A DNA stretch of 64,000 nucleotides from an uncultured Thiohalocapsa sp. (lineage in GTDB: Bacteria; Pseudomonadota; Gammaproteobacteria; Chromatiales; Chromatiaceae): assembly GCF_913063425.1 (NCBI RefSeq), contig NZ_CAJXYK010000008.1, positions 62,001-126,000 on the forward strand, given 5' to 3'. This document shows positions 14,719 to 32,910 of this stretch, in pieces. The notes beneath the pieces are model-generated. The model did not search any database. It was not told where the DNA came from and was given only the letters and a program-made list of their open reading frames with translations. How positions within the stretch are numbered: position 1 is the first letter of the stretch; every line of letters begins with the position of its first letter. The position numbers and the translations under genes were made by a program.

Positions 14719-15639
14719 GTGAACATCGACCCCAAGCACACCGCGTTCGGTCGGCACGAGACCTTCCCGCTGCGCTACGCCTGGCTGACCAAAGGCTACA
14801 GGGCCGTCACCGAGCGCCCGGACATCTTTGCGCAGCCGGACCGAGCCATGGTCAAGCTCGGTGTCGGACGCAACATGGTCAGTGCCATCCTGTACTGGCT
14901 CCAGGCGGCACGCCTGCTCGACTACGCGGACGGGGAGGCAACCCCCACCACCCTTGGACAGGTCATCCTTGGCGATGAGGGCGATCGTTTCCTGGAGGAC
15001 GAGGCCACACTCTGGGTGCTGCATTGGCTCATCGCCTCCAACAGCCGGCTGGCGACCGGCTTCTACTGGTTCTTCAACCGCTTCGCCCTGCCCCGTTTCC
15101 GCGAGGACGAGCTGCGCGCCGGCCTGACCGATTTCGTCGCGCGCGAGCTGCGCATCGAGCGCTCCGCCAGCACCCTGAAATCCGACACCTCGACCCTGCT
15201 CAGAATGTACGCACCCGGCGACCCGACCGAGCCAGGCCGCGGCGAAGATCATCTCGACACGCCGATGAGCCAGCTGCGGCTGGTGGAGCAGACCGGCCAG
15301 GGCCGGGAATTCCTCAGCCTCCGGAGCCCGCGCCCCTTCCTGCCGCCGCTGGCGCTGCATGTCGCCCTCGCCGAGTGCTTCGCGGACGATCGCCAAGGTC
15401 GGCCGGCGATACCCGTCCGCGACCTCCTCTACGGCCGTGACGACGGCGCCGCCCCGGGCGCGGTCTTTCGCCTCAGCGAAGACGGCCTGATGACGGCGCT
15501 CAATCGCGTCATGCGCACCTGGCCCGGCTGCTACGAGCTGCGCGACACCGCTGGCGTCCACCAGCTCTATCGCGTCCGCGACGTCGCAAGCCCGGAAGCC
15601 ATCCTTGAGGACTACTACCGGCAGGATGCAGCAGCGTGA
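14719..15639 (+). CDS. DUF4007 family protein, phosphorothioation-associated
   Basis: A 306-residue soluble protein. The N-terminal segment (GRHETFPLRYAWLTKGY, then LGVGRNMVSAILYWL) is the DUF4007 signature. The biochemical function is unknown. From family knowledge, these genes recur beside cysteine desulfurases and PAPS-reductase-like DndC genes in DNA-sulfur-modification loci. It starts with GTG at 14719 directly after the desulfurase TGA and overlaps the next gene by 4 bases (GTGA), so the three genes form one translation unit. A DndC-like gene is not present beside it. Confidence 0.8.
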   Translation: MNIDPKHTAFGRHETFPLRYAWLTKGYRAVTERPDIFAQPDRAMVKLGVGRNMVSAILYWLQAARLLDYADGEATPTTLGQVILGDEGDRFLEDEATLWVLHWLIASNSRLATGFYWFFNRFALPRFREDELRAGLTDFVARELRIERSASTLKSDTSTLLRMYAPGDPTEPGRGEDHLDTPMSQLRLVEQTGQGREFLSLRSPRPFLPPLALHVALAECFADDRQGRPAIPVRDLLYGRDDGAAPGAVFRLSEDGLMTALNRVMRTWPGCYELRDTAGVHQLYRVRDVASPEAILEDYYRQDAAA

Positions 15640-18600
15640 GTACATCAGCCGCCCAGGTGCGTAACCTCGATGCGCCGGCCGTCCTGCCCGCCGACGGACG
15701 GCTCTCGGAGCACATCGGCATCGGTGCTGGATTCCGCCGCTCCATCAACCTGGAGCGCGATCAAGACGCCGCCGATCTGCTGCAAGGCTATGTGCCCACG
15801 TCGCGCGCCCTGGCCGCGCTGGAACAGCTCGCCGATGGCCTGGACGGCCACGCCGCCGGGCGTGCGCTGGCGCTCATCGGCCCATATGGCGCCGGCAAGT
15901 CCGCGTTCGGATTGTTCGCAGCCGCGCTGCTCGGTCCACCGGACGCCACCGGCAAGACCATCGCCGACGCCAAGCTCCGCCATGCGGCGCCAGACCTGGC
16001 TAAACGCCTGCGTGCCACAGGCCACAGCGCACACGGCTTGCTGCGGGTTCAGGTCAACGGCATACCGGACTCCCTGATCCGCCAATTGCTGCTCGCCCTG
16101 GCCCGCGCCGCGGAGCAGGCGGCGCTGCCCGCAACGCTGATCAAGCGCATCCGGGCCGCGGCGCGGCCTGGCACCCGCATGGACCATGTGATCGACCTCA
16201 TCTCCCAAACCCGGAGCGCCTGGGCAAGCGCCGGCGGAAGCGGCGTGCTGATCCAGATCGACGAGCTGGGAAAGCTGTTGGAGTTCGAGGCCCAAGGCGG
16301 CGACCGCAGCGAGATCCATCTGCTCCAGCTGTTGGCAGAAAAGGCGGCCGAGCCCAGCGACGCACCGCTTTGCATCCTGGTCATGTTGCACCAGGCCTTC
16401 GAGCACTACGGCGCGCGCCTCGGCAAGACGCTCCGCGACGAGTGGAAGAAGGTCCAAGGCCGCTTCAGCGCAGTCGCCTTCCTGGAGCCCGCAGAACAGT
16501 CGCTGCGGGTCACCGCCGCCGCGTTCAACCGCGATGCGGACCTCGGCGAGGGCCTGAAATCCGAAATCTTCGACATCACCAGCCGATTGGCTGAATGCTC
16601 CGCCCTGCCACTCGGCCTGGACCTCGCCGGCGCCACAGAGCTGTTCGAGCACTGCTACCCGCTGCACCCCACCACGCTGCTGATCCTGCCCGTGCTCTGC
16701 CAGCGCGTGGCCCAGAACGAGCGCACACTGTTCTCCTATCTGGCCAGCACCGAGCATTTCGGCCTGAGCCGGCGGTTGCAGGAACTGCGGCCAGGCGACT
16801 GGATCGGCCCCTGGGAGCTCTACGACTACTTCATTCTCAACCAGGCCGGCGGCTTCTCCGATCCCCTCACTTACCACCGCTGGGTGGAAGTCATCACCGC
16901 CCTGGAGCGCTGGGACGGCCATACCGAAGGGGACGGGGACGACGCCGCGGTGCGGCTGCTCAAGACCATCGGGCTTCTGAACCTCGTCGGCGCGCAACGG
17001 GGCCTGAGGGCCTCGGAGGCCGTGCTGCGGCTGCTGTTCGACGACGCCCTCGACGGGCTGCTGGAGGCACTGCAAGCCGCATCGATCATCCACTTCCGCG
17101 GCTTCGCGCAGGAGTTCCGTGTCTGGCAGGGCAGCGACTTCGACCTCCATGGTGCCCTGGAGCAGGCCGCCGCCGAACAGAATGAGCGTTCGCTGGCCGA
17201 CACCCTCAACGCCCTTGCCCCCCTGCCCCCGGTGGTCGCGCGCCGGGCCAGCATCGAGACCGGTACGCTGCGCAGTTTCCAGGTCCGGTTCACATCCGCC
17301 GAACGCTGGCCACCGGCCCGCACCGACGCCGAGCTTGACCTCTTTCTGTACCTGGCCGAGCCCGGCGAACAGCCCGAGCTGCACGACGCCCCCGAACGCG
17401 CCGTGGTCGCCGTCTGCCAATCCACCGAGCGCCTGCGCGAGCTGGTGGCCGAGTGGCAGGCCCTCACAGAGCTGCCCCGGCAGCACGCCCAACTGCAGCA
17501 GGACCCAGTCGCCAAGCGCGAGCACCGGGCCTGGCTGGAGCACGCCGAGGCCGATGCCATCGGCGCCATCCGCGCCCTGCTGGAGTCCCCGGAGCACCTG
17601 CGCTGGCACTTCGACGGCGAGCATCAGCCCATCGCGTACCGGCGCATGCTGCAAACCGCGCTCTCGGACTGGGTGATGCAGCATTGCTTTCCGCTCACCC
17701 CGCGTATCAGCAACGAGCTGATCAATCGCGAGCGCCTCTCCAGCGCCGCCAGCACCGCGCGCAAGAAGCTGCTCGCCGCCATGCTGTCGGCAGCGGACCA
17801 AGACGGCCTGGGCATCGCCAAGACGCCGGCGGAAAAGAGCCTCTACCTGTCGCTGCTGCGCGAGAGCCGCCTGCATCGCCCCGGTACCGACGGCCGCTGG
17901 GACTTCCACCCACCGGACCCGAACCACGACCCCTGCCGACTAGGCCCGGCTTGGCGCACTATGCATCGCATCCTGGGCGAGGCCGGGCAACGCCAGGTGC
18001 CGCTGCCGGAGATCTACGCCAAGCTCCAGGCACCGCCCTACGGGATCAGGCTGGGCGTGCTGCCCATCCTGCTGGTCACCTACCTCATCGCCCACCGCCG
18101 CGAGACCGCGCTCTATCAGGAGGGCGCCTTCAGCGAGCAGCTCAGCATTGCCCAGGCCGAGCTCCTGTGCCGCCGGCCGGCGCTGTTCGCCATCGAGCGA
18201 TTTGAGCTCAAGGGCCTGCGCGCCGAGCTGTTCCAACGCTACCTCGGCTCCATTGTCGGCAACCTCGCCGGCGATGCCACCCTGCTCGATATCGTCCGCC
18301 CGCTGATGCGTTTCGCCCAGCAATTGCCCGAGTACAGCCAGCACTGCGACGGCCTCAGCGCCGAGGCCGAGCGGGTGCGCGCCGTCTTCCGCCAGGCCAA
18401 GAGCCCGGGGCAGATGCTGTTCACCGAGTTGCCCCGCGCGTGCGGCTTCGACCCCGACAGCTTGCGGCTCGCCGCAACCGACGTGACAGCGCCGGCGACG
18501 GCAGCTCACCGTCGGCACCGACCAACCCCACACCCTCGACCACATAACCGGACAGGTGGAGATCGACTCGGTTTGTATCGGCGTCCGCCATGGCCGCAAC

Positions 18601-18869
18601 CACGTCATCGTCACCGAGGCCAAGCGCGGCCCCTTCGACAGCATCGCCAGGCACAAGCTCGCATACGCCGTCTGGTCGGTCCGCAGCAACATCCCCGACG
18701 ACATCCCGATCATCGCCATCTGCTGCTGCGCGTCACCGACACGGATCAGGGACTGGAATTCAACGTCGCCGAGTGCGCCATCGACGACGGACGCGACGGC
18801 GTGCCAAGCCTGCACTCCGTCGAGCCGATCGGGCATCGGCGGCTGCGGTTGCGGAGTCTGGTCGGGTGA
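15636..18869 (+). CDS. Large P-loop ATPase of the sulfur-modification operon, 3' end rearranged
   Basis: An ATP-binding protein with Walker A GPYGAGKSAF near residue 85 and a Walker B-like LIQIDELGK near residue 206. It belongs to the very large ATPases seen in phosphorothioation, BREX and similar defence loci. Up to about residue 947 (base 18478) the sequence is protein-like and ends in the family-like MLFTELPRACGFDPDSL. After that the frame turns into a His/Arg/Pro-rich nonsense stretch and then enters another gene remnant, so the natural C terminus has been lost. The open frame gives 1077 residues. It starts at GTG 15636, overlapping the DUF4007 stop. Confidence 0.7.
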   Translation: MSTSAAQVRNLDAPAVLPADGRLSEHIGIGAGFRRSINLERDQDAADLLQGYVPTSRALAALEQLADGLDGHAAGRALALIGPYGAGKSAFGLFAAALLGPPDATGKTIADAKLRHAAPDLAKRLRATGHSAHGLLRVQVNGIPDSLIRQLLLALARAAEQAALPATLIKRIRAAARPGTRMDHVIDLISQTRSAWASAGGSGVLIQIDELGKLLEFEAQGGDRSEIHLLQLLAEKAAEPSDAPLCILVMLHQAFEHYGARLGKTLRDEWKKVQGRFSAVAFLEPAEQSLRVTAAAFNRDADLGEGLKSEIFDITSRLAECSALPLGLDLAGATELFEHCYPLHPTTLLILPVLCQRVAQNERTLFSYLASTEHFGLSRRLQELRPGDWIGPWELYDYFILNQAGGFSDPLTYHRWVEVITALERWDGHTEGDGDDAAVRLLKTIGLLNLVGAQRGLRASEAVLRLLFDDALDGLLEALQAASIIHFRGFAQEFRVWQGSDFDLHGALEQAAAEQNERSLADTLNALAPLPPVVARRASIETGTLRSFQVRFTSAERWPPARTDAELDLFLYLAEPGEQPELHDAPERAVVAVCQSTERLRELVAEWQALTELPRQHAQLQQDPVAKREHRAWLEHAEADAIGAIRALLESPEHLRWHFDGEHQPIAYRRMLQTALSDWVMQHCFPLTPRISNELINRERLSSAASTARKKLLAAMLSAADQDGLGIAKTPAEKSLYLSLLRESRLHRPGTDGRWDFHPPDPNHDPCRLGPAWRTMHRILGEAGQRQVPLPEIYAKLQAPPYGIRLGVLPILLVTYLIAHRRETALYQEGAFSEQLSIAQAELLCRRPALFAIERFELKGLRAELFQRYLGSIVGNLAGDATLLDIVRPLMRFAQQLPEYSQHCDGLSAEAERVRAVFRQAKSPGQMLFTELPRACGFDPDSLRLAATDVTAPATAAHRRHRPTPHPRPHNRTGGDRLGLYRRPPWPQPRHRHRGQARPLRQHRQAQARIRRLVGPQQHPRRHPDHRHLLLRVTDTDQGLEFNVAECAIDDGRDGVPSLHSVEPIGHRRLRLRSLVG
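18487..18869 (+). pseudogene. Frameshifted remnant of a nuclease-like gene
   Basis: A protein-like reading is split over two frames. From about 18487 to 18718 one frame gives TGQVEIDSVCIGVRHGRN and VIVTEAKRGPF. At about 18720 it shifts to the frame of the ATPase, giving RVTDTDQGLEFNVAEC and HSVEPIGHRRLRL to the stop. The spacing of EID and TEAK resembles a PD-(D/E)XK nuclease core. The start is missing. Together with the truncated ATPase this indicates a deletion that joined two genes. Confidence 0.6.
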
Positions 18870-19806: not shown

Positions 19807-20652
19807 ATGAGAAAACCTTCACCCTTCATAAAGGCACGCACCCATGACCTCTCGATTTCTCCATCGCTTACCGGCTTATGCATCGGGTATGAGCTAAAAA
19901 AATGGAGAGCGCCGCAATTCGCGGATCATGTGATGGAGTGGTTGCCCGAGTTTTCCCTTTCATACACGGAACTGCAACAGGTAGACGCCTCGAACATGGT
20001 TGCCCTCATGCGCGCAGCCGCTCGCTCGATATACAAGTCCGAGAAGTTTCAACTTCGTGGTGAGTTTGGCGAACTTTTTCTGCATGCCGCCATACGCCAA
20101 ATATTCGATTCGGTACCTGCCATATCGAAAATCTATTACAAGACCGCTCGCAACGATACGGTGAAGGGATTCGACGCGGTACACGTTGTTGCAGCCGAGC
20201 GAGGATTAGAGCTTTGGCTTGGGGAAACCAAATTCTACAAGAGTATTGATCGAGCCATCCGAGACGTCGCTACTGAACTGCGAGACCATACCGAAAGAGA
20301 TTATTTGCGAGATGAATTTATAGCTATAACAAACAAAATCCCACCGGAATGGCCCCACGCTCACGAGTTGAAGCAACTACTCGATCCTAACCAGAGCCTC
20401 GACACCATATTCAATCGTGTTTGCATTCCCGTCCTTCTCGCCTACGACAGTCCTTGCATATCGAGTCATACTGCCGACTGCAAACAGTACAGAGAGGATT
20501 TCGACAAAGAGGTTCGCGCAAACTACCAGAAATTCTGTAGCCAGCCTATCCCAGAGAATGTATTCATACATCTTTTCCTGCTTCCGCTCGAAACGAAGAA
20601 GGAACTGATCGCGCTGCTCGACGCCAAACTCAAGGTATGGCAACAACTATGA
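19807..20652 (+). CDS. hamA: Hachiman defence protein HamA (DUF1837 nuclease)
   Basis: A 281-residue DUF1837 protein, the effector nuclease of the Hachiman anti-phage system. Features are SLTGLCIGYELKKW near residue 20, FQLRGEFGELFLHAAI near 81, and the nuclease core KGFDAVHVV (Asp123) with LGETKFY (Glu140, Lys142). The length is normal for HamA. Its stop codon overlaps the hamB ATG. Base composition is clearly lower in GC than the flanking genes, pointing to recent acquisition together with hamB. Confidence 0.9.
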   Translation: MRKPSPFIKARTHDLSISPSLTGLCIGYELKKWRAPQFADHVMEWLPEFSLSYTELQQVDASNMVALMRAAARSIYKSEKFQLRGEFGELFLHAAIRQIFDSVPAISKIYYKTARNDTVKGFDAVHVVAAERGLELWLGETKFYKSIDRAIRDVATELRDHTERDYLRDEFIAITNKIPPEWPHAHELKQLLDPNQSLDTIFNRVCIPVLLAYDSPCISSHTADCKQYREDFDKEVRANYQKFCSQPIPENVFIHLFLLPLETKKELIALLDAKLKVWQQL

Positions 20653-22766
20653 AACCAGCAACGTTGCGCAAGATCCTGAGCGACGCCCAGGAAATCCAGA
20701 AGAACTCGTTCGCCATTTTGAAGTCCATCGGCTTCTACCTGAACGATCCTAAGCAGCAAACGATTGGGCGTGAGTTGGTTCTGCGTGCGCTTGAGCACCG
20801 TGACGCCTTTTCGCCCTATACTCCAATACTGGACACTTTTGTCCGTCAAGTCGGTTTATTCCCGTACTTGGACGAAGATGCACTGTCATTTCGCGACGCT
20901 GTCGCTTACGAATTCCATCGCCCGGATGGCATGAAGAATGAACTCGTCTTTCATCGCGCCCAGGCAGAAATATATCGGCGCCTCCTTCGAGGGGAAAACG
21001 TTATCGTCAGCGCTCCGACTAGTTTCGGAAAAAGCAAAATAATTGATGCCGTCATCGCTCTAGAAAGATACAAGAATATAGCAGTGATTGTACCCACAAT
21101 TGCGCTTATCGACGAGACCCGCAGGAGACTTTCCACCTTTGGAGCGAGCTACAAGTTGGTCACTCATGTATCACAAGAACCGGGAGAGCGAAATGTCTTT
21201 ATCTTTACCGCAGAGCGAATGGTTGCGTATCAGCACCTGCCCGACGTACATTTCTTTGCTATCGATGAGTTCTACAAAATTGGAGCGATCGAAGAAGACG
21301 AGACAAGAACCATCGCACTCAATCAAGCTTTTTACACTCTTTACCGGACTGGCGCACAGTATTACATGCTTGGACCAAACATCCGCAGGATTCCAGACGG
21401 ATTGCAAGAGGCATTTGGTTGCTATTTTTATCACACCGAGTTTGCGACTGTGGTAACGGAGATCCAAAGAATAAGGAAGACGCGAAAAGATGTGGAAGGC
21501 CTTGTGTCGCTGACCAAGACGTTGACAGAGCCCACCTTGATTTTTTGCCGATCACCGAGTCGAGTTAATGCAGTGGCGCGCGCCATGCTTGATGCGCGAG
21601 GGCAAACAAGAGAAAAGGAATTCCGAGACGCCGCGGAGTGGGTCGCGGCTCACTTTCATCCCGATTGGGTATTCCAGGCCGCTCTGAAAGCAGGCATCGG
21701 GATTCATCATGGAAAACTGCCCAGATCCCTGTCTCAGTACGTTATCCGCGCATTTAATCAGGGCGAACTACAATTTCTCATTTGCACCAGCACCATTATC
21801 GAGGGCGTTAACACAAGAGCTAAGAATGTTGTGATTTTTGATAATCGTATCGGTAGAAATAGGCGGTTAGATTTTTTTACATTCAACAATATCCGAGGCA
21901 GGTCTGGACGTATGTTCCATCATTTCATAGGGAAGGTGTTTGTTTTTGACGAACCACCAGACGAGGATTTCTTTGATGTAGATTTTCCTCTGTTCACTCA
22001 GGACTCCGACACGCCCGCAAGTCTACTTATCCAGCTCGACGAGGCGGATCTAACCGAGAAGTCTAAAGCGCGTGTTTCTGATTTCGTTGAGCAGAAGCTT
22101 CTTCCCTTGGAGATACTTCGACAGAACAGTGGCGTATCTCCAGACGCACAAATTCGGCTGGCGGAGAAACTAGGCGCGCTCCCAGGGCATGAGCGGACTA
22201 GACTTCTCTGGACAGGCATCCCTTCCAGTGATGAGCTGTACTATGTATGTGAGTATCTCTGGGATTTCCTTCTAGTGGGCAAGTCGGGCAGCGGAGTCGC
22301 TTCGGCAAGACAGTTAGCATATAAGGTGAGCTCGCTTATGGAGAGAAGGCCAATTCGTGAGCGAATTGAAAGAGAGCTGACGCCTGGACCATACGCGGCG
22401 AAATCGGCAGATGCGGCGGTTGAGCGAGTATTGGAGTTTGACCGAAATTGGGCGGGTTTCGAGTTTCCGCGTGCGCTGATGGCTATGGACCGCATACAAC
22501 AGCACGTTTTTAATCGTCTTTTTGGGCGCAGTGGAGATTACGGTTTTTTTGCGACAATGGTCGAGGCGTTATTTCGTAATCCAGCGGCTGCTGCACTTGA
22601 GGAATATGGCTTGCCATTGCAGGTGTTCGACAAGATAGAACGCCGGGTTCGGTTGTCCGACGAGCTAGACGCGGCAATTGCGGAGATCAAACTCGTTCGG
22701 CCGGAGGAGGTGGGCCTTTCCCCTTTTGAAGCCGAGTTGTTTAATGATACGAGAGCTCACTTATGA
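20649..22766 (+). CDS. hamB: Hachiman defence helicase HamB
   Basis: A 705-residue SF2 helicase that monitors DNA and controls HamA in Hachiman. Motifs: Walker A SAPTSFGKSK (residues 121-130), Walker B FFAIDEFYK (the DEFY variant seen in this family), GIHHGKLPRSL, STIIEGVNTRAKN and motif VI NIRGRSGRM. The ATG at 20649 overlaps the hamA stop (ATGA); another in-frame ATG at 20637 has a poorer ribosome-site spacing. Like hamA it is AT-richer than the island around it. No frameshift or missing motif is seen, so the system looks intact. Confidence 0.9.
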   Translation: MKPATLRKILSDAQEIQKNSFAILKSIGFYLNDPKQQTIGRELVLRALEHRDAFSPYTPILDTFVRQVGLFPYLDEDALSFRDAVAYEFHRPDGMKNELVFHRAQAEIYRRLLRGENVIVSAPTSFGKSKIIDAVIALERYKNIAVIVPTIALIDETRRRLSTFGASYKLVTHVSQEPGERNVFIFTAERMVAYQHLPDVHFFAIDEFYKIGAIEEDETRTIALNQAFYTLYRTGAQYYMLGPNIRRIPDGLQEAFGCYFYHTEFATVVTEIQRIRKTRKDVEGLVSLTKTLTEPTLIFCRSPSRVNAVARAMLDARGQTREKEFRDAAEWVAAHFHPDWVFQAALKAGIGIHHGKLPRSLSQYVIRAFNQGELQFLICTSTIIEGVNTRAKNVVIFDNRIGRNRRLDFFTFNNIRGRSGRMFHHFIGKVFVFDEPPDEDFFDVDFPLFTQDSDTPASLLIQLDEADLTEKSKARVSDFVEQKLLPLEILRQNSGVSPDAQIRLAEKLGALPGHERTRLLWTGIPSSDELYYVCEYLWDFLLVGKSGSGVASARQLAYKVSSLMERRPIRERIERELTPGPYAAKSADAAVERVLEFDRNWAGFEFPRALMAMDRIQQHVFNRLFGRSGDYGFFATMVEALFRNPAAAALEEYGLPLQVFDKIERRVRLSDELDAAIAEIKLVRPEEVGLSPFEAELFNDTRAHL

Positions 22767-23150
22767 AGCGCCGGCATGAAAGATTAATGGTCGCTGGGAG
22801 AGTATACTGCTCTCCTCGAAACACACGCGAGAACCTTGGGGAGAGGGTGGGGACTCGGGGTCAAGTGTTGTGGCGACTTGAGCAGAGAGCGTCACAGAGC
22901 AGAAGGGGTCACAGAGCAGGACGGGTCTCGCGTTGCACACCCCGGCATGACGCGAAACGCGCGGTGGCCGAGGCTTACCACTCCGGCGCGTAAAGTATGC
23001 AGGGCACTACCGACGACTTTTGGAACGAATCAGCGACAGACCACGAATACTCGAGCTAGGTAAAGAAGGGCAAACAGGGACACGAACCACGCAGCGGTCG
23101 GGTGCGCGGACGAACGGAACCCGGCTGGGGTGCATGACACAGACTTCGCC
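22767..23150. other. Gap after Hachiman with small repeats
   Basis: No supported gene. A small hairpin (GGAGAG-N7-CTCTCC, 22797-22815) follows hamB and might act as a weak terminator. GTCACAGAGCAG is repeated in tandem near 22890-22920. At 23037-23054 lies an 18-base sequence (CAGACCACGAATACTCGA) found again at 33175-33192, probably part of a dispersed extragenic element. Confidence 0.45.
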
Positions 23151-23744
23151 GTGACGTACCGAACGCAGGATTATTACAACCAGAATGCGGACGTCTTCTT
23201 CGACGACACCGTCGAAGTCGACATGAAGCCGCTCTACGCGCGCTTTCTCAAGCTGCTGGCCGACCACGTAGCGATTCTCGACGCCGGCTGCGGCTCCGGC
23301 CGAGACGCGCTCGCCTTCGCCAAGCTCGGCTACTCAGTGACCGCCTTCGACGCCTCCCCTGCCCTCGTCGCGCTGGCGGAGCGACACACCGGCCAGCCGG
23401 TGCATTGCCTACGCTTCCAGGACATGACCTGGCAGCAGCAGTTCGACGGCATCTGGGCCTGCGCCAGCCTGTTGCACGTGCCGGGGGAGGAGCTGCCGGA
23501 CGTGATGGGCCGGCTTCGGGCTGCGCTCAAACCCGGCGGCATCCTCTACGCCTCCTTCAAGTACGGCAGCGGGGAGCGCGAGCATCAGGGCCGGCGCTTC
23601 ACCGATCTGGATGAGCCGGGTCTGGCGGGCCTGTTGGCCCAGGTGCCCGGTCTGGTGCCGGTGGAGACCTGGACGACGGGTGATCTCCGGCCGGGCCGCG
23701 AGTCGGAGCGCTGGCTGAATACACTCCTGCGCAGGACGGCTTGA
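23151..23744 (+). CDS. Class I SAM-dependent methyltransferase
   Basis: A 197-residue methyltransferase of the small Rossmann type. Motif I is ILDAGCGSGRDALAFA, motif II VTAFDAS, then FDGIWACASLLHV and LKPGGILYASFKYGSG. The substrate is unknown; similar genes often sit directly upstream of PLD-helicase genes, as here. GTG 23151 is preferred because VTYRTQDYYNQNA looks like the family start; GTG 23130 is also in frame. The stop overlaps the helicase start by 4 bases. A decayed copy of this gene's 3' end lies at 36284-36518 and a scrap at about 33127-33165. Confidence 0.82.
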   Translation: MTYRTQDYYNQNADVFFDDTVEVDMKPLYARFLKLLADHVAILDAGCGSGRDALAFAKLGYSVTAFDASPALVALAERHTGQPVHCLRFQDMTWQQQFDGIWACASLLHVPGEELPDVMGRLRAALKPGGILYASFKYGSGEREHQGRRFTDLDEPGLAGLLAQVPGLVPVETWTTGDLRPGRESERWLNTLLRRTA

Positions 23745-26665
23745 GCTTGGAGCGGTTCCTGACCACCGGCGGGGCGGTCGATCCGTTTCTGCCGCACCTG
23801 TTGGACGCGATCCGCGGGGCCGACCAGGTCGATCTGGCCGTGGCCTTCATCAAGTCCAGCGGCCTGTCGTTGATCTACGGGGCACTGGAGGACGCGGTGG
23901 TGCGCCGCGGCGCGCGGCTACGCGTGCTGACCAGCGACTACCTAGACGTGACCGATCCGCGGGCGCTGCGCAGCCTGCTGCTGTTGGCGGAGCGTGGCGC
24001 CGAGCTGCGCGTGTTTCAGGCGGAGCGGCAGAGCTTTCATCTGAAGGCGTACATCTGCACCCGCAGTGAAGACGGCCTGGCGGTGTGGGGCGCGGCCTTC
24101 GTCGGCTCCAGCAACCTGAGCCGCACCGCGCTGACCGACGGGCTGGAGTGGAACCTGCGGGTGGCGCCGACGGACGACGCCGAGTCGCTGGAGAGCAAGC
24201 GTTTCCGCGAGATTCGGGCGCAGTATGAGGCGCTGTTCGCGCATCCGCAGATCCAGCCGCTGGATTACGACTGGATCGAGCGCTACGAAGCACGCCGCCG
24301 GCTGGTGCAGCACCTACCCGTCGCGGCCGGCTGCGAGGAGCCCGAGGAAGCGGATCAGGAGACGCCGCCGCAACCGTCCGAGGTGCAGCAGGAGGCGTTG
24401 AGCGCACTCGCGGCGAGCCGCGCCGAGGGCTTCCGACGGGGCCTGGTGGTGATGGCCACCGGCCTCGGCAAGACCTACCTGGCGGCCTTCGACAGCCAGG
24501 CGATGGGCGCCGGGCGGGTGCTGTTCGTCGCCCACCGCGAGGAGATCCTGTTGCAGGCGGAGGCGAGCTTCCAGCGTGTGCACCCGCAGGCGCGCGTCGG
24601 CCAATACACCGGCGCCCGCAAGCAGACCGGCGTGGAACTATTGTTTGCCTCGGTGCAGACGCTGGGCCAGGCCGAGCACCTGGAGCGCTTCGCGCCGGAC
24701 CATTTCGACTATGTGGTGGTTGACGAATTCCACCACGCCGCGGCGCCCACCTACCGCCGGCTGCTGCAACACCTGCGCCCGCGCTTCCTGCTGGGGCTCA
24801 CCGCCACGCCGGAGCGCACGGACCAGTCGGACATCCTCAGCCTGTGCGACGACAACCTGGTCTACAGCCGACACCTGTTCGACGGCATCGAGCTCGGACT
24901 GCTCTGCCCCTTCCGCTACTTCGGCATCTTCGACGAAACGGTGGACTACCGGGAGATCCCCTGGCGCAACGGGCGCTTCGACCCCCAGGCCCTGGAGCAC
25001 AAGCTCGCCACCCAGGCCCGCGCCCGCCATGCGCTGCGGTACTGGCGCGATCAGGGGCGCGAGCGCACCCTGGCCTTCTGCGTTTCGCGCAGCCATGCGG
25101 ACTTCATGGCCGAGCGCTTCCGGCGCGAAGGCATCCGCGCCGCCGCCGTCTATCGCGGCTCGACCCTGGAGCGCAGCCAAGCCCTGGAACAACTGGAGCA
25201 TGGCCGGCTCCAGGTGATCTTCTCGGTGGACCTGTTCAACGAGGGCGTCGACCTGCCGGCCATCGACACCGTGCTGATGCTGCGCCCGACGGAGTCCAAG
25301 GTGCTGTTCCTGCAACAACTGGGCCGCGGACTGCGCCAGCATCCAGGCAAGGAACACCTGGTCGTGCTGGACTTCATCGGCAACCACCAGGGCTTTCTGA
25401 ACAAACCCCAGGCGTTGTTCGATGTGGGCAGCAGCTATGCTCAGCTCGCCGAGTTCGGCCGCCGCGCCCGCGACGGTGCGCTGAAGCTGCCGCCCGGCTG
25501 CTTCGCCAACTACGACCTGGCCATTATCGACTTCTTGATCCGGCTCCAGGGCAAGGGACCGGCGACCGACTACCAGGCCCTGCGCGACTCCCTGAACCGG
25601 CGGCCCACGCTGGCGGAGCTCTACCGCAGCGGGTCGAGCATGCCAGCGCTGCGCAAACAGCACGGCCACTGGTGGGCGCTGGTGGCCGACCAGGGCGATC
25701 TGACACCGGACGAGGCGGCCTGCCTGGAGCGCCACGCGGACTTCTTCCGGGAGGTGGAGACCACGAGCATGACCAAGTGCTTCAAAGCTGTGCTGCTGGA
25801 GTCCCTGCTGGACCTGGACGGCTTTCGCGAGCCGCCGACGGTCGAGGCCCTGGCCGCCCAGGCGCTGGAGGTCTTCCGCCGTCGGCGTGGCTTCATCGCC
25901 GACATCCACAAGGATCTGCGGCAGGTGGACGCCGTGGATGAGCGCAAGTGGCTGACCTACTGGAAGGGCAACCCCATCAACGCCTGGACCGGCGGCAACC
26001 GCAAGGACGACGCCAAGCGCTGGTTCGAGATGACCGACGGCCGATTCCGACCGACCTTCGCGGTGGACGACGGCGAGCACGACACCTTCCAGACCATGGT
26101 GCAGGAACTGGTGGACTACCGGCTCGCCGCCTATGAGCCGCGCCTGCCGCAAAGGCCTCAGGACGAGCCCGAGCAGCCTGCCGACGAGGGCGCGAAGATC
26201 CTGCCCTTTCCGCAGCCCGCAGCCGCCGATGAGGCCGAGGGCACCGAGGTGCCTTACTTCCCCGATCTGCGCATCGCCTGCGGCCACTTCCGTACCGGAC
26301 GCACGGAGGTGGAAGAGACCTGTCTCGTACCGCCGGGCCACGGCAGCGTCGACCCCAGCCGCCACTTCGTCGCCCGCGCCACGGGCAACTCCATGGACGG
26401 CGGCAAGAACCCGGTACGCGACGGCGACTATCTGCTGCTGGAATTGATCGACCCGACCAAGGCCGGCGCCATCACCGGCAGCGTGATGGCCATCGAGCGA
26501 CAGGACGCCACCGGCGACGACCAGTACGTGTTGCGCCGCGTCGCCAAGTCGCCGGACGGCAGCTATGTGCTCAAGGCCGCAAACCCCGACTATCCGGACT
26601 TCGAGGCGAACGACGCCATGCGCCCCCTGGCCCGTTTGATCGCAAGCTGGGGCGAGGAGGACTGA
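23741..26665 (+). CDS. PLD-SF2 helicase fusion with S24-like C-terminal domain
   Basis: A 974-residue multidomain protein. Residues 1-180 are PLD-like, with FHLKAYICTRSEDG and GSSNLSRTAL. An SF2 helicase follows: Walker A VMATGLGKTYL near 240, DEFHH near 327, GLTATPERTD, and NEGVDLPAID with QQLGRGLRQ. A long region of unassigned fold contains WLTYWKGNPINAW. The last 110 residues look like an S24/LexA-type fold (ATGNSMDGGKNPVRDGDY). The combination suggests a nucleic-acid-stimulated defence or repair enzyme with a sensor or self-processing tail. It starts with TTG at 23741, overlapping the methyltransferase TGA. The SNase gene follows 5 bases downstream. Confidence 0.85.
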   Translation: MSLERFLTTGGAVDPFLPHLLDAIRGADQVDLAVAFIKSSGLSLIYGALEDAVVRRGARLRVLTSDYLDVTDPRALRSLLLLAERGAELRVFQAERQSFHLKAYICTRSEDGLAVWGAAFVGSSNLSRTALTDGLEWNLRVAPTDDAESLESKRFREIRAQYEALFAHPQIQPLDYDWIERYEARRRLVQHLPVAAGCEEPEEADQETPPQPSEVQQEALSALAASRAEGFRRGLVVMATGLGKTYLAAFDSQAMGAGRVLFVAHREEILLQAEASFQRVHPQARVGQYTGARKQTGVELLFASVQTLGQAEHLERFAPDHFDYVVVDEFHHAAAPTYRRLLQHLRPRFLLGLTATPERTDQSDILSLCDDNLVYSRHLFDGIELGLLCPFRYFGIFDETVDYREIPWRNGRFDPQALEHKLATQARARHALRYWRDQGRERTLAFCVSRSHADFMAERFRREGIRAAAVYRGSTLERSQALEQLEHGRLQVIFSVDLFNEGVDLPAIDTVLMLRPTESKVLFLQQLGRGLRQHPGKEHLVVLDFIGNHQGFLNKPQALFDVGSSYAQLAEFGRRARDGALKLPPGCFANYDLAIIDFLIRLQGKGPATDYQALRDSLNRRPTLAELYRSGSSMPALRKQHGHWWALVADQGDLTPDEAACLERHADFFREVETTSMTKCFKAVLLESLLDLDGFREPPTVEALAAQALEVFRRRRGFIADIHKDLRQVDAVDERKWLTYWKGNPINAWTGGNRKDDAKRWFEMTDGRFRPTFAVDDGEHDTFQTMVQELVDYRLAAYEPRLPQRPQDEPEQPADEGAKILPFPQPAAADEAEGTEVPYFPDLRIACGHFRTGRTEVEETCLVPPGHGSVDPSRHFVARATGNSMDGGKNPVRDGDYLLLELIDPTKAGAITGSVMAIERQDATGDDQYVLRRVAKSPDGSYVLKAANPDYPDFEANDAMRPLARLIASWGEED

Positions 26666-26670
26666 GCGTC

Positions 26671-27585
26671 ATGTCTGTTCGGTTCGGCAACCGGGTGCCT
26701 GTTGCTGGCTTGTCGAGCCATGCGTTCTCGACCGGCCTGCTGCTGCTGGTCCTATTGCTTCCCTTTGGAGTGCTGCCAGCCTCGACACTCCAAACCTTCG
26801 ACAACGCCCGCCTGATTCCGACGGAGTGGGCGGACGGCGACAGTTTCCTCGTCGCCTTTCCCAACGGCGACGAGCATACGGTTCGGCTCTACGGCGCCGA
26901 TTGCATTGAGTACCACGTCACCGACGCGACCGATGCAAGGAGGCTGCGCGCCCAGCGGCGCTATTTCGGCATCAAGGGGTACGGTGGCGAGCTGGTGAAG
27001 TCGGTCGAGCTCGCCAAGTCGCTCGGAAAATCGGCCACCGATCTGGTTCGTGAGGTGCTCGCGAGACCCTTCTCCGTGCATACGTCCTTTGCCGATGGCG
27101 GCGGGGATGGCCGCTACAAACGGATCTACGCCTTCATCACGACGGCCGATGGTCAGGACCTGGGAACGCTGCTGGTCAGCAGGGGGCTTGCACGGGCCTT
27201 CGGTGTCTATCGTGGCCACCCCGATGGCCGCAACCGGGACGAGTATCGCGAGTCACTCAAAGACACGGAGCTGATCGCGGCCAGCGAGCGCCGCGGCGCA
27301 TGGGCCTATACGGACTGGAACGCCTTGGCGGCCGAGCGCAGCGAGGAACGACAGGAGGAGGCAGAGATCGACGCCACCCTCGGTCGCGCTCCGCCGCCGG
27401 ACAAGATTGACATCAACACAGCCGCCAGGGATGTGCTGATGCAGATTCCCCAGATCGGCGAGGTGCGTGCAAACCGCATCATCGAAGGTCGCCCCTACCG
27501 CCGCGTTGACGAGTTGTTGAAGGTCAAGGGCATCGGCGAGAAGCGGCTGGAGATGATTCGGGAGTGGGTTGTGGTCTCGCCCTAG
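26671..27585 (+). CDS. SNase-like nuclease with helix-hairpin-helix tail
   Basis: A 304-residue protein. A hydrophobic segment near residues 18-35 may be a signal peptide or anchor. A staphylococcal-nuclease-like barrel follows (DGDSFLVAFPNGDEHTVRLYG, then YKRIYAFITTADGQDLG, LLVSRGLARAFG). The C-terminal 60 residues form a ComEA-like HhH DNA-binding unit (KIDINTAARDVLMQIP, VKGIGEKRLEMI). It is the third gene of the methyltransferase-helicase operon, 5 bases after the helicase. The export signal is odd next to cytoplasmic partners; it could mark a membrane-tethered nuclease. Function in defence is inference from context. Confidence 0.75.
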   Translation: MSVRFGNRVPVAGLSSHAFSTGLLLLVLLLPFGVLPASTLQTFDNARLIPTEWADGDSFLVAFPNGDEHTVRLYGADCIEYHVTDATDARRLRAQRRYFGIKGYGGELVKSVELAKSLGKSATDLVREVLARPFSVHTSFADGGGDGRYKRIYAFITTADGQDLGTLLVSRGLARAFGVYRGHPDGRNRDEYRESLKDTELIAASERRGAWAYTDWNALAAERSEERQEEAEIDATLGRAPPPDKIDINTAARDVLMQIPQIGEVRANRIIEGRPYRRVDELLKVKGIGEKRLEMIREWVVVSP

Positions 27586-27747
27586 GCGGCTGTGCGCACG
27601 CAGGGCGGTTTGCTTGGCCGCTACCGAGAAGCTTTGGGGCACCTTGATGACACGGAGTTGTCCGCGCAATCCTGTTTGCTGGCGAAATCGATATGTGTCT
27701 TGTAGTCGAGCGACAACTAGCCTGACACAGGGGGAACCGTCGGTTTT

Positions 27748-28236
27748 CGCACCTACGCGGACTCGCTGAACCCTCCGATCCTGCATCGTAAGGAGCTGTT
27801 GCTGGCGGCGGATGATCCCCGACGGGAGGCCTGGGTGGCGCTGACGGCTGCCTGCGAGTCCGTCAGGCTGTTCGATGATCCGAGGCGCATCGGCTATCGG
27901 CGCCAGTGGGAGCAGCTGGTGCGCGAGCGCGGCTATCGGCTGGTGGATCACGCACTGTTGCCCATCGGCAACGACGAGGCCATCGACGACGACGCCGACA
28001 TGGGGGCCGGCGCCGATCCCGATGCCGAGCAGGCGCCGTCGGCGGGTCCGGCGGGCTGGTCCGCCGCGCGGCATCGCACGGCGCTGAGCCGCCACGGCTT
28101 CTCCGCGCCGATCCAGAGCCTGGCGCGCAATGGGTTGCTGAACGGTACGCACTCGCTGTTCGACTATGGCTGCGGTCGCGGCGACGATCTGCGGGGCTTA
28201 ACGGACAACGGCATCGAGGCGCAGGGGTGGGACCCC
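27748..28236 (+). pseudogene. Truncated copy of the phosphorothioation-associated methyltransferase
   Basis: This segment closely matches an internal part of the full gene at 30178-32910 (bases about 30503-30966): TYADSLNPPILHRKELLL, RQWEQLVRERGYRL, HRTALSRHGFSAPIQSLARN, and the SAM motif FDYGCGRGDDLRGL. Both ends are missing. It stops at AQGWDP, where a DUF4338 fragment begins. The preceding 160 bases after the SNase gene contain no recognisable gene. Confidence 0.8.
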
Positions 28237-29224: not shown

Positions 29225-29400
29225 TCAGCCATCGAGCAAATCGGCCCTGCTCAGGGTCTTGCGGCGACGGATGCTGTTGCGGCTCGCCTCCTCGGACGCA
29301 TCCCTTGCCTTCAATAATTCCAGGTAGGTGCCGATGTGTTTGCGGGCCGTCCGTAGCTGACTAGGGGTTAACTTCGGGCGGCCTCGGCCATACCTGAGGG
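29225..29400 (-). pseudogene. Unrecognised coding remnant upstream of the DUF5615 gene end
   Basis: One reverse frame is protein-like for about 55 residues: YGRGRPKLTPSQLRTARKHI, then YLELLKARDASEEAS and IRRRKTLSRADLLDG before a stop. It overlaps the last part of the DUF5615 gene in another frame and has no start codon of its own. I do not recognise the family; it may be the end of a small antitoxin-like protein. Confidence 0.35.
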
Positions 29401-29750
29401 AATCGAACGATGCCGTCGCGGGATAGCTCGATATAGCAGCGCTCGTTCCCCGCGATTTGGGTGATGGTTGGCCAATGCGCTTCGATCTGAGTGGTCAGTT
29501 CGGCGTTGGAGAGGTTGCCAAGGGTGATGCGCAGGAGTCGGGCGGGCGTACCGTTCAAGAAGTGCGTGTCTCGAAAGTCGCCGTCCTTTGTGATGAGGAG
29601 CATGCCATTGGCATCGACGAAGGCCGAAATCGCCGCGTCAGTCGTCGCTGATCCATCGAGGATTCGGTTCACATGTGTCGCATCGACGCCCATTTCCCTC
29701 AGTCGTTTGATGAGACCGTATGGGATATGCACATCACAGAGTACTCGCAT
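29361..29750 (-). CDS. DUF5615 PIN-like toxin
   Basis: A 129-residue Mut7-C/DUF5615 family protein, a PIN-like predicted RNase toxin. Signature segments are MRVLCDVHIPYGLIKRLREM, TDAAISAFVDANGMLLITKD, GDFRDTHFLNGTP and LLRITLGNLSN. The ATG at 29750 overlaps the stop of the upstream DUF433 gene by 3 bases, the standard arrangement of this toxin-antitoxin type. The C-terminal 15 residues are Pro-rich and may be frameshifted relative to the ancestral gene. Confidence 0.82.
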   Translation of the reverse strand: MRVLCDVHIPYGLIKRLREMGVDATHVNRILDGSATTDAAISAFVDANGMLLITKDGDFRDTHFLNGTPARLLRITLGNLSNAELTTQIEAHWPTITQIAGNERCYIELSRDGIVRFPQVWPRPPEVNP

Positions 29751-29977
29751 CAGGCGACTCGACGAGTGGGCTCACCGGATACGAGTAGACGCGCATACTC
29801 CAGGCACGCGGTGACGTCGTCGCGCTCCAACTCTGGGTGGTCGGCGAGAATCTCATCGACAGACATGCCCGATGCAATCATGTCCAAAACCACTTCCACG
29901 GGCCAGCGCATGTGGCGTACGCAGGGTTTGCCGTGGCAGATGCCGGGGTCGAGGGTGATGCGCTGTAGGTGCGACAT
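29750..29977 (-). CDS. DUF433 antitoxin
   Basis: A 75-residue DUF433 protein: MSHLQRITLDPGICHGKPCV, then MRWPVEVVLDMIASGMSVDE ILADHPELERDDV. This is the helix-turn-helix antitoxin that usually precedes DUF5615 toxins. I chose the ATG at 29977, which starts the conserved domain; an upstream in-frame ATG at 30043 is less likely. Confidence 0.82.
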   Translation of the reverse strand: MSHLQRITLDPGICHGKPCVRHMRWPVEVVLDMIASGMSVDEILADHPELERDDVTACLEYARLLVSGEPTRRVA

Positions 29978-30177
29978 AGTGGCTCTAACGCTGAGGAAGT
30001 CAGGGAAGAGAATAGGCTTGGCGTCGTGCTGGCGCAACCGCATTCCAGAGGTGGAGCAGTCGCTGGCTCGGACCTTGTCTAAGGGGCGGAAGGCGCGCCG
30101 AGCCCGGCGAACCCAGAGAGTGATGGTGGCTACGCATCAGAACCCACCTTTGCCACTCCTGAGACGATCCCGCACGG

Positions 30178-32910
30178 ATGGCTGTTTGCGGAGGCGACCG
30201 ATTGCAGTTTGAGAGCTCGCGCTCTGACAATTCTGGCAAACTCGTCGGCAACAAGCGCTATCTCCACGTCGACGCGCTGCCGCGGGCGGCGGACGGCCAG
30301 GAGGCGCAAGCGCTGCTCGCTGCGGTCGCCAGGGCCGAGGCCCTGGCCGGTGTGCGCCGGGGAGAGCACTTCAACCTGGTCCGGATCGATGCGGATGGCG
30401 CGGAGCTGGCGCTGGTGCATTATCCAGGTTTCGTCGGGGAGCCCTTCCCGGCGCTCGCGCAGAGCTGGCGGGTGGACCTGGCCGCCGGCACTCTCAGCCA
30501 TCGCACCTATGCCGACTCGCTGAACCCGCCCATCCTGCACCGCAAGGAGCTGCTGCTGGCGGCGGATGACCCGCGTCGGGCCGCTTGGGCCGAGCTGACG
30601 GCGGCCTGCGAGTCGGTGGGACTGTTCGATGATCCGCGGCGCATCGGTTACAAGCGCCAGTGGGAACAGCTGGTGCGCGAGCGCGGCTATCGGCTGATGG
30701 ATCATGCACTGGTGCCCATCGGCAACGACGAGGCCACCGACGAGGCCGCGGATGGGGCGCCAGGGACTTCGACCGGTCCGGCTGGCAGGTCCGCGGCTCG
30801 GCATCGCACGGCGCTCAGCCGCTACGGCTTCTCCGCGCCGATTCAGAGCCTGGCGCGGAATGGGTTGCTGGACGGTACGCACTCGCTGTTCGACTACGGC
30901 TGCGGTCGCGGCGACGATCTGCGAGGCTTGCGGGAGAACGGCGTCGACGCGCAGGGGTGGGACCCCTACTTCGCGCCGGACGAGCCGGTGGTGGGGGCGG
31001 ACATCGTCAATCTGGGCTTCGTCATCAACGTCATCGAGGACTTCGACGAGCGGCTGGAGGCTCTGACCCGGGCCTGGTCGCTGGCCCGAAAGCTGCTGGT
31101 GGTCTCGGTGATGCTCGCCAATCACAACGATCCTCGCGGCGAGCGCTTCCGCGATGGCGTAATGACCCGGCGCGGCACCTTTCAGAAGTACTACACCCAG
31201 GCGGAAATCAAGGCGTTTTTGGAGGAGGTGCTGGACGAGGAGGCGATCCCGGTCGGCCCGGGTGTGCACTACATCTTCCGCGACAAGGATGCCGAGCAGC
31301 GGCTGCTGGTGAACCGCTACCGAAGCCGGCGCAACCTGCTGCGACTCCCGCCGAGAAGTCCAGCAGAACACCGTGAGCGCCCGCGCCGCGACCGTGCCGC
31401 CGAAAAATACCGGGCACACCAGCAGGAGCTGGAGCGGCTGTGGGCACTGCGCCTCGACTCAGGCCGCGACCCCGACAAGACGGAGACGCCGGACCAGCTG
31501 GCGTTGACCGAGGCGTTCGGGTCGGTCCCTAAGGCGCTGCGCTTCATTGTCGCCCAGAAGATCGCCGACCTGGGGGAAGAAGCGGTAAGGGCCATGCTGG
31601 AGCGGTCCGTCAAGGCGCGGCTGGACGATCTGCTGGTCTACTTCGCACTGGACCAGTTCGGCCGACGCAAGCCCTATAAACACCTCGAATCCGGCCTGAA
31701 GCGGGACATCAAGGCCTTCTTCGGCGACTACGCCCAGGCCCGCGCGCAAGGGCTGGCCATGCTGATGCAGATTGCGGATGTGGACGCCATCGAACAGGCG
31801 TGTCTGACAGCGGCGGAGCACGGCTTGGGCTGGCTTGCTCAACGCGATCAAGACGCAGACGAGCCGGGGGGCGACGCGGAGCGCGGACAGGAGGATGGGA
31901 GCACTTCGCGTCCGCGTGCAAAATCACTCACACTGGGCTCCGGGTTAGTCGACCGCTTGCCCGCGCTGCTGCGGACCTACATCGGCGCCGCATCCGCGGC
32001 CTACGGCGACTACCAGAACGCCGACCTGCTGAAGATCCATATCGGCAGCGGCAAGCTCACGCTGATGCGCTTCGATGACTTCCATGGCCAGGCGCTGCCG
32101 CGCATGTTGGAGCGCGTGAAGATCAAGCTCCGCGAGCAGGACGTCGAGCTCTACTCCTACGGTGGTGACTATCCGCCGCCCTACCTCTACTGGAAGTCAC
32201 GCTACCTCAATGAGGAAGACCCCAGCTACCCCGACCAAATCGCTTTTGATGAATCCCTCGATGGGCTCGGCCTGTTCGATCTCTCTGGGTTCGGGCCGCC
32301 GCCAGCCGCACTGGAGGCGACACTGCGACGACATCGTTGGCAGATCGACCGCTTCACCCTCAGGCGCGGGCACTGGAAACCGGACCTTGATGATCCCTGC
32401 GGCCGCTTCCTGACCTATCGCGACCTGATCGAGTGCGGAGAGACGCAGCACGCCACCGAAATACCAAACCTGCCGGAGCAGATCGAGAGCTACGACGCAC
32501 TACTGGCGCTCGCGGAGAACGTGCTCGATCCGGTCATCGACTGGTTCGGCATGATCCGGCTGACCTTCGGCTTCTGCTCACCAGCCCTTGCGCGCAAAAT
32601 CCCCGGCCGCATCGACCCGAAGCGGGATCAGCACGCGGCCCACGAGTGCAATCGCCTCGGCAAACTCGTTTGTGATCGCCTGGGCGCTGCGGCGGATTTT
32701 CTTGTCACTGACGAAGACATGCTCGATGTCGCGCGTTGGGTGGTTGAGAATACGCGCTTTGATCGGCTGTATTTTTACGGCAAGAACCTGCCCATCCATG
32801 TGAGCTTCCACCCAGCGCCTAAGGGACAGGTGGTGCTGATGAAGCAAACGAAGGCCGGCAGTCTTGTTCCACGCGTCATAACCAAGGAGGCTTTCAAATC
32901 CTCAGCGTGA
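30178..32910 (+). CDS. Phosphorothioation-associated methyltransferase-like protein
   Basis: A 910-residue protein. Residues 25-200 form an N-terminal module beginning GKLVGNKRYLHVDALP and containing NPPILHRKELLLAADDPRR. Residues about 210-400 match the dnd-related methyltransferase family: HRTALSRYGFSAPIQSLARN, SAM motif FDYGCGRGDDLRGL, NLGFVINVIEDFDERLEAL. A helical middle follows, and a C-terminal 140 residues (LTFGFCSPALARK, LGAAADF, FDRLYFYGKNLPIHVSF) that loosely recall M15 peptidases. Such genes accompany DNA phosphorothioation loci; the methylated substrate is unknown. The first 25 residues look random, so the true start may be later (TTG 30202) or upstream in a lost frame. A truncated copy lies at 27748. 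Confidence 0.75.
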   Translation: MAVCGGDRLQFESSRSDNSGKLVGNKRYLHVDALPRAADGQEAQALLAAVARAEALAGVRRGEHFNLVRIDADGAELALVHYPGFVGEPFPALAQSWRVDLAAGTLSHRTYADSLNPPILHRKELLLAADDPRRAAWAELTAACESVGLFDDPRRIGYKRQWEQLVRERGYRLMDHALVPIGNDEATDEAADGAPGTSTGPAGRSAARHRTALSRYGFSAPIQSLARNGLLDGTHSLFDYGCGRGDDLRGLRENGVDAQGWDPYFAPDEPVVGADIVNLGFVINVIEDFDERLEALTRAWSLARKLLVVSVMLANHNDPRGERFRDGVMTRRGTFQKYYTQAEIKAFLEEVLDEEAIPVGPGVHYIFRDKDAEQRLLVNRYRSRRNLLRLPPRSPAEHRERPRRDRAAEKYRAHQQELERLWALRLDSGRDPDKTETPDQLALTEAFGSVPKALRFIVAQKIADLGEEAVRAMLERSVKARLDDLLVYFALDQFGRRKPYKHLESGLKRDIKAFFGDYAQARAQGLAMLMQIADVDAIEQACLTAAEHGLGWLAQRDQDADEPGGDAERGQEDGSTSRPRAKSLTLGSGLVDRLPALLRTYIGAASAAYGDYQNADLLKIHIGSGKLTLMRFDDFHGQALPRMLERVKIKLREQDVELYSYGGDYPPPYLYWKSRYLNEEDPSYPDQIAFDESLDGLGLFDLSGFGPPPAALEATLRRHRWQIDRFTLRRGHWKPDLDDPCGRFLTYRDLIECGETQHATEIPNLPEQIESYDALLALAENVLDPVIDWFGMIRLTFGFCSPALARKIPGRIDPKRDQHAAHECNRLGKLVCDRLGAAADFLVTDEDMLDVARWVVENTRFDRLYFYGKNLPIHVSFHPAPKGQVVLMKQTKAGSLVPRVITKEAFKSSA

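Follow-up and report, generated by a model that had tools for sequence, protein, structure and literature searches.

SauUSI, a type IV restriction enzyme of Staphylococcus aureus, combines a PLD nuclease, an SF2 ATPase, a helical coupler and an SRA reader of 5-methylcytosine and, according to the passages of PMC7913695 that deal with its action, dimerises via the nuclease, translocates and shreds the DNA between its sites. The same passages also give CglI and NgoAVII a PLD nuclease and an SF2 motor, located on two subunits and accompanied by a B3 target domain. Here we analysed a locus in a 64,000-nucleotide stretch of DNA from an uncultured Thiohalocapsa sp. (Chromatiaceae; NCBI RefSeq assembly GCF_913063425.1, a genome of 5.9 Mb, contig NZ_CAJXYK010000008.1, positions 62,001 to 126,000 of the forward strand; hereafter the window, numbered from its first letter), in which a helicase gene overlaps an upstream methyltransferase gene. 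Like SauUSI and unlike CglI and NgoAVII, the helicase carries an N-terminal PLD nuclease with an HxK motif and then an SF2 ATPase in one chain, and this chain ends in a UmuD-like tail. The reading we prefer, with confidence falling just short of even, is that the two genes form a type IV-like restriction unit of a methyltransferase and a SauUSI-like nuclease, the latter controlled through RecA filaments by the UmuD-like tail. The SauUSI-like core is already known, and we regard the locus as a new variant of it: in the open-licence literature searched, we found no description of the tail, the fusion, the methyltransferase-helicase pair or the re-use of these parts on HNH nucleases, and the PADLOC models scanned match single parts only, not the whole system.

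Architecture of the methyltransferase-helicase pair

Three open reading frames (ORFs) on the plus strand, at 23130-23744, 23741-26665 and 26671-27585, are coupled as tightly as the first-pass annotation of this DNA had reported, by a 4-base overlap and then a 5-base gap. The first gene is real, although the start assigned to it, 23151, is a later in-frame GTG, and the ORF begins with the GTG at 23130. Pfam recovered all the domains that had been named, that is, the methyltransferase, the PLD, SF2 and S24-like parts of the helicase, and the SNase and HhH domains of the third product. A fragment said to recur in the island turned out to be a decayed copy of the methyltransferase-helicase junction at 36282-36528 (plus strand), 82% identical to the window's own. 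The proposal that all three genes make up an undescribed defence set held in part: a restriction or defence role and the lack of a name are supported for the methyltransferase-helicase pair, not for the three-gene set. Support for a defence role of the pair comes from its location in an island that also carries Ssp and Hachiman genes, from the fusion or adjacency of its two parts in all informative loci and from its SauUSI-matching core. Only the methyltransferase and the helicase look as though they belong together, with the SNase-HhH gene an apparently unrelated neighbour.

The helicase product of 974 aa (23741-26665, plus strand) starts at a TTG overlapping the methyltransferase stop and is matched by Pfam, PADLOC and the SauUSI structure (PDB 7clg). 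Its PLD nuclease domain (aa 28-151, 23822-24193; Pfam PLDc_2) contains the HxK residues His100 and Lys102 and a GSSN motif at 122-125, and the SF2 motor (about aa 212-546, 24374-25378; Pfam ResIII and Helicase_C) has Walker A at 240 and DEFHH at 328. Across 64 aligned sequences, the window's included, His100, Lys102, GSSN, the Walker A core, DEFHH and motif VI are invariant. Residues 16-553, spanning both domains, match 7clg with E 1.1e-82, and the PADLOC mREase_IV models (PDLC03659/03658) align to aa 24-552 with E 1e-107, covering the PLD and helicase parts and leaving the tail and the methyltransferase outside the match; a caller based on mREase_IV would probably file the window gene as an ordinary type IV system. 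RadD- and XPB-like SF2 proteins are also among the helicase matches. Judged by its sequence, the helicase is best classed as a SauUSI-like restriction nuclease, a class marked by ATP-dependent cleavage of modified DNA. The region behind the motor (about aa 590-800, 25508-26140) is helical in an AlphaFold2 model; neither sequence nor structure searches matched it to the SauUSI coupler, 7clg giving no match there, and we call it coupler-like by position and helical make-up only.

Scanning named genomes with the C-terminal half of the helicase returned 328 relatives, and the counts that follow rest on the best 80, which lean towards the window's kin (an HNH protein, L123, was left out of the 80). 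They come mostly from Gamma- and Betaproteobacteria, with a few from Alphaproteobacteria, Geomonas and Pelobacter and one from Latescibacterota; among named genomes, the window helicase is closest to Thiohalocapsa (Chromatiaceae). The methyltransferase, METHYLTRANSFERASE, is a constant partner of the helicase, fused or adjacent in 72 of the 72 informative loci among the 80, the kind of constant linkage to a nuclease that marks classical restriction-modification. Both lie in the same frame in 53/80 loci (stop-to-stop frames of 826 to 1,509 codons, median 1,302), the methyltransferase is directly upstream in 15/80, including L090 with its broken helicase frame, and a divergent methyltransferase lies directly downstream in convergent orientation in 4/80. 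Six of the 8 uninformative loci are cut 5' by a contig end (L049, L054, L058, L059, L081, L122), L119 is without an N-terminal part, and L061 stops at the edge of its contig. Five loci had at first been scored as having no methyltransferase; four of them have the divergent convergent copy downstream, and the fifth is L061. The pair also occurs on a Pseudoalteromonas plasmid, and a Polaromonas plasmid carries a same-frame fusion in which the helicase ends early beside a transposase gene.

The most evident departure of the window helicase from SauUSI is at its C-terminus, where Pfam matched no DUF3427 (SRA) domain: in the window's branch, the S24 domain stands where SauUSI has its SRA, and then the chain ends. 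The fused relatives, in contrast, keep the C-terminal SRA of SauUSI, with DUF3427 following the tail in those tested with Pfam and the terminal domain of one of them (L088) matching the SauUSI SRA region 811-916 at E 3e-6; what they add is a UmuD-like domain ahead of the SRA and an N-terminal or adjacent methyltransferase. A motif test found the SRA in 50/53 fused loci and did not find it in the window or in 13/80 loci that group with the window. The majority architecture (53/80) is therefore methyltransferase, PLD, SF2, tail and usually SRA in one frame, as against a split methyltransferase and no SRA in the window's branch. A quick IQ-TREE phylogeny of 64 helicases with five tail-less outgroups contains a fused-with-SRA clade (with one split member), an SRA clade with the convergent downstream methyltransferase, and an SRA-less Chromatiaceae branch, which includes the window, nested among split-with-SRA loci. 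A second SRA-less set (L021, L024, L038) is placed apart, and the tree needs at least five changes of state; its deepest forks, where long branches meet, are weak. We read the window's arrangement as reduced from a methyltransferase-PLD-SF2-tail-SRA enzyme, though this direction of change is tentative because the root of the tree is unsure.

The UmuD-like tail and its serine-arginine pair

The tail (aa 834-968, 26240-26644) is matched by Pfam Peptidase_S24 with E 1.1e-8. An AlphaFold2 model of aa 590-974, built on a 51-sequence alignment and having a mean predicted local distance difference test score (pLDDT) of 83.4, consists of a helical part and a beta domain. Its top Foldseek match in the PDB is a hyper-cleavable lambda CI fragment with the cleavage-site region (E 6.5e-8, template modelling score 0.74 on the target), and the next ones are CI-RecA, further CI and LexA entries and LexA-RecA, with UmuD-RecA at 1.4e-3. 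The structures nearest to it, those of lambda CI, LexA and UmuD, include complexes with RecA and are compatible with a role of the tail as a damage sensor. The setting of the domain differs, in that it forms the tail of a nuclease-motor and not a repressor or a polymerase subunit.

Conservation was assessed in 84 loci, namely, the window and 83 others carrying the helicase or its tail, the HNH protein L123 among them. The GxSMxGG motif is present in 82/84, QY[LV]LR in 82/84 and the ACG pattern in 81/84; L039 and L121, both with broken or truncated ORFs, miss all three motifs, and the third ACG miss is L123, which reads IACGRF and so falls outside the pattern. In UmuD, LexA and CI, the Cys/Ala-Gly pair precedes the catalytic serine by 36, 35 and 38 residues, respectively. 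In the window, Cys847-Gly848 (26279-26284) precedes Ser884 (26390-26392) by 37, placing the pair at a UmuD-like cleavage position within the expected range of about 35-38 residues. The S24 fold, the serine and the Cys-Gly pair are thus shared with UmuD, LexA and CI, whereas the place of the catalytic lysine is taken by Arg932 (26534-26536), and the Ser-Lys dyad for which the first-pass annotation had proposed to search is a Ser-Arg pair. The arginine of QYxLR aligns with the CI lysine that we take to belong to the dyad and that the CI-RecA entry 8gmu shows as Ala. An apparent lysine dyad in L141 was rejected, the true site reading SEYLLR. A LexA Lys-to-Arg mutant is said to cleave still at raised pH, for which a literature search gave no confirmation.

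This substitution opens the alternative of a restriction enzyme whose tail is proteolytically inactive and serves in docking or dimerisation, unconnected with RecA or damage; its LexA-like fold would then be only a scaffold, or else a reader of DNA or targets that replaces the SRA in this branch. Arginine replaces the dyad lysine in all 82 pattern-matching tails of the 84 loci, and in loci lacking the SRA no C-terminal domain other than the tail is left, both as this alternative would have it. Ser884 and Cys847-Gly848, however, are near-invariant and not obviously needed by a mere scaffold, and the tail is not simply a substitute for the SRA because most relatives examined carry both. We consider a dead tail somewhat doubtful. 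Either way, the combination of a Ser-Arg dyad with a conserved Cys-Gly makes it possible to ask sharply whether LexA-like domains still function, or have been put to another use, once the lysine is gone.

A phage origin of the helicase tail was considered and rejected: the tail had no match in 50,697 phage records at E 1e-3, and L123, the sole viral-contig match, proved to be a tail-bearing HNH protein.

The methyltransferase and its nuclease partners

The first gene (23130-23744, plus strand) encodes a class I S-adenosylmethionine (SAM) methyltransferase of 204 aa, UbiG/TehB/RPA2492-like and matched by Pfam Methyltransf_25, with the SAM motif DAGCGSGRD intact. Its model has a pLDDT of 94 and is closest to RPA2492 (3e23, of unknown function) and then to toxoflavin N-methyltransferase, with the protein N-terminal methyltransferases NTMT1/2 further down; the rest of the 50 PDB fold matches listed are small-molecule, halide, protein, RNA (METTL6) and uncharacterised methyltransferases and one cyclase, and none of the 50 has DNA methyltransferase in its title. 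The SAM-binding motif is conserved, as is DGIWxCASLLH, which reads DGIWACASLLH in the motif IV region of the window protein. DNA methyltransferases bear DPPY/NPPY or PC motifs, neither of which was found in the window methyltransferase. Fold and motifs speak against a classical protective DNA methyltransferase, leaving room for a new kind. Because the fold is of the small-molecule or protein type, the target is more probably the partner protein or a small molecule than DNA, which is the weakest step of our proposal. The protein also resembles mad2 of the MADS system (PADLOC PDLC04134; E 4.9e-17, aa 14-147), but only the SAM-binding domain of mad2 matches, and other MADS models are absent among the window proteins scanned.

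The methyltransferase and the tail both recur on other nucleases. In 398 Pseudomonadota genomes, two SauUSI-like queries found 18 genes besides the window's, and the methyltransferase adjoins 4/4 of the tail-bearing as opposed to 1/14 of the tail-less ones (hypergeometric 0.0016, calculated by hand); one of these four adjoining methyltransferases is only 30% identical to that of the window. Querying an equal number of genomes with the methyltransferase matched 12 other genomes. Eight of the 12 homologues, at 45% identity or above, all adjoin a nuclease-type gene: three tail-bearing SauUSI-like genes, one SF2 gene whose tail ends early (L190), one HNH gene with the tail (L191) and three tail-less HNH-like genes (L176 over the Pfam cut-off, L193 by 53% identity to L176, and L177 by eye). 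The other four, at 38-43% identity, have no adjoining nuclease in ORF lists read by eye. On plasmids, a helicase or HNH gene directly follows, precedes or is fused to the methyltransferase in 7/12 regions viewed.

In L191:1363-3507, the methyltransferase is followed by a 514-aa HNH endonuclease with a UmuD-like tail, its first ATG directly after the methyltransferase stop; the head is 81% identical to a tail-less HNH of a Pseudoalteromonas plasmid, itself following a methyltransferase, and the tail is 49% identical to that of the window. A second HNH-tail gene comes after a methyltransferase on a viral contig (L211:6001-8138, IMGVR_UViG_2802429360_000012), the same contig as L123. Since the tail occurs on an unrelated HNH nuclease whose head also exists without it, the tail is, by sequence comparison, a portable module. 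In L190 (G425:C1:3140500-3149500; 3003-6579, minus strand), a 977-aa frame comes after a methyltransferase; its first 250 aa or so are of unknown type, and an SF2 helicase and a prematurely ending UmuD-like tail follow. It is a possible, if tentative, extension of our proposal that the constant methyltransferase and the detachable tail make up a control kit placed on varied DNA-cutting engines (PLD-motor-SRA, PLD-motor, another SF2 motor, HNH) in bacteria and prophages, which would yield the first restriction enzymes to carry an SOS switch of their own and to take their signal straight from the RecA filament.

A constant methyltransferase with differing nucleases, helicase or HNH, could also point to non-canonical restriction-modification, where a new DNA methyltransferase, or one acting on the DNA backbone or on hypermodified bases, marks self and interchangeable PLD-SF2 or HNH nucleases cut unmarked DNA. 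The presence of the methyltransferase in the nuclease's own frame in most loci would agree with this, but its fold and sequence match small-molecule, protein N-terminal and RNA methyltransferases, and a protective cytosine mark would be hard to reconcile with an SRA domain that reads modified cytosine on the same polypeptide. We regard this explanation as unlikely.

Methyltransferase-HNH pairs were further seen on plasmids of Pseudoalteromonas, Acinetobacter and Roseomonas (L198, L200, L202, L233), one of them beside type I-F CRISPR genes, and on viral contigs L210, L213 and L214, where the HNH was recognised by eye. In three HNH partners scanned (L176, L178, L184), no PADLOC model matched at E 1e-5. 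That plasmids and viral contigs pair HNH genes with this non-DNA-type methyltransferase, in one case next to CRISPR genes, points to a broader group of nuclease systems, apparently without a name, for which current models give only partial matches. On Aromatoleum aromaticum plasmid 2 (L201:3660-5764), a HIT-family gene takes the place of the methyltransferase beside a related HNH gene (36% identity), and a gene for an SOS response-associated peptidase comes next. In L188, a methyltransferase homologue has a TIGR04096-like gene and an SF2 restriction-type gene nearby; on a Methylibium plasmid (L234), another is one gene away from a phosphorothioation-associated methyltransferase gene, and diverged copies with 38-47% identity occur on large viral contigs of 152-258 kb (L212, L217, L219, L221, L222).

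Proposed mode of action and genomic setting

In the RecA-controlled restriction unit that we favour, the SF2 motor would drive the PLD nuclease, presumably as a dimer, along foreign DNA, which is cut, and in the full-length relatives the SRA would pick modified cytosines. The UmuD-like tail would bring the enzyme to RecA-ssDNA filaments by docking, and either this docking alone or self-cleavage at Cys847-Gly848, stimulated by RecA, would switch the nuclease upon damage to the cell's own DNA; in full-length relatives, a cut at this position would also remove the SRA target reader. The methyltransferase, whether fused or adjacent, may modify the partner protein or a small molecule. Such a tail would amount to built-in restriction alleviation that ties restriction to the state of the host DNA. 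For the type I enzyme EcoKI, restriction alleviation runs through ClpXP, as stated in a passage of PMC11109961. If the tail does read RecA filaments, the locus would encode a restriction enzyme with its own damage switch and, compared with the EcoKI/ClpXP route, would give a direct molecular answer to how motor-nucleases spare the host chromosome during repair.

Several observations weigh against this proposal. What speaks most strongly against it is the arginine, with which proteolysis may be slow or absent, and the main gap is that target recognition in the SRA-less branch is left unexplained. The methyltransferase also pairs with HNH nucleases that have no tail, and therefore it need not act on the tail; a strict tie between the two was ruled out by the many tail-less HNH partners. 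Five of the 12 methyltransferase-bearing plasmid regions have no directly adjoining nuclease, although in 3 of these 5 there is an HNH gene no more than about 4 kb away. Defence-like genes are a minority of the 136 nearest neighbour ORFs of the relatives, by a raw count made without a background comparison. SOS induction through a LexA box was considered as well and dropped, as sites with at most one mismatch are found in 9/68 upstream regions and 6/80 control stretches inside the gene, with no clear excess.

It is very unlikely, in our estimation, that the helicase is a general DNA-repair enzyme, a RecA-recruited motor-nuclease working on damaged chromosomes, not in defence. The RadD- and XPB-like matches of the motor and the UmuD-like tail itself would suit repair, as would the five relatives that adjoin gyrB. 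A patchy distribution (matches at E 1e-30 in 39/210 genomes of the order, many of them to the helicase core only), copies on plasmids, relics and truncations, and the SRA in most relatives examined all argue otherwise. The five are fused genes lying just downstream of gyrB in Janthinobacterium and Rugamonas (L066, L067, L078, L098, L121), a possible insertion hotspot.

The third gene (26671-27585, plus strand; ATG start) encodes a 304-aa product with a signal-peptide-like N-terminus, judged by eye, an SNase domain and a ComEA-like HhH (Pfam SNase and HHH_3), and is most likely a passenger. That the three genes form one new defence operon, with the SNase-HhH protein as a second nuclease, is hardly tenable and already largely refuted. 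In its favour are the 5-base spacing in the window and a thermonuclease gene two genes from the methyltransferase on a Roseomonas plasmid, which gives no tblastn match to the window SNase (E 1e-3). Against it, tblastn detected the gene in 0/83 of the other helicase or tail loci, 76 of which have at least 1,000 bases downstream; its homologues in 8 other Chromatiaceae genomes (9/204 searched, its own included) do not adjoin the helicase, the nearest being about 16.5 kb away on the same contig; and its N-terminus points to export. Rare co-occurrence of the three genes, which the first-pass annotation had named as grounds for refutation, thus holds for the third gene.

The phosphorothioation and Hachiman neighbours that the first-pass annotation had reported are present, all on the plus strand: SspA, SspB and SspC at 13534-18869, HamA and HamB at 19807-22766, and a TIGR04096 phosphorothioation-associated putative methyltransferase at 30178-32910. 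A fragment with about 80% identity to the TIGR04096 gene was detected at about 27733-28161, traced as far as the searched locus extended. Ssp or TIGR04096 genes occur in the flanks of 6/13 SRA-less loci of the window's group, listed by hand, vs 0/67 others; a link between this group and phosphorothioation was dropped as a claim, being confounded by phylogeny and unequal flanks.

Among the nearest neighbour ORFs of the relatives, counted raw and within the 25 commonest families per scan, we found 9 HNH_2 (by Pfam and PADLOC HNH models), 6 NERD, 5 Mrr_cat and 5 GyrB, along with single matches that include SspA, SspC, DRT, Druantia and type IV models. A NUDIX (MutT-like) gene lies at a distance of 2-8 bases from the fused gene in L070 and L074; a passage of PMC7641849 mentions that homologues of MutT occur beside those of SauUSI. 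Within the window, two small adjacent genes at 29361-30043 on the minus strand look to us like a DUF433/DUF5615 toxin-antitoxin pair.

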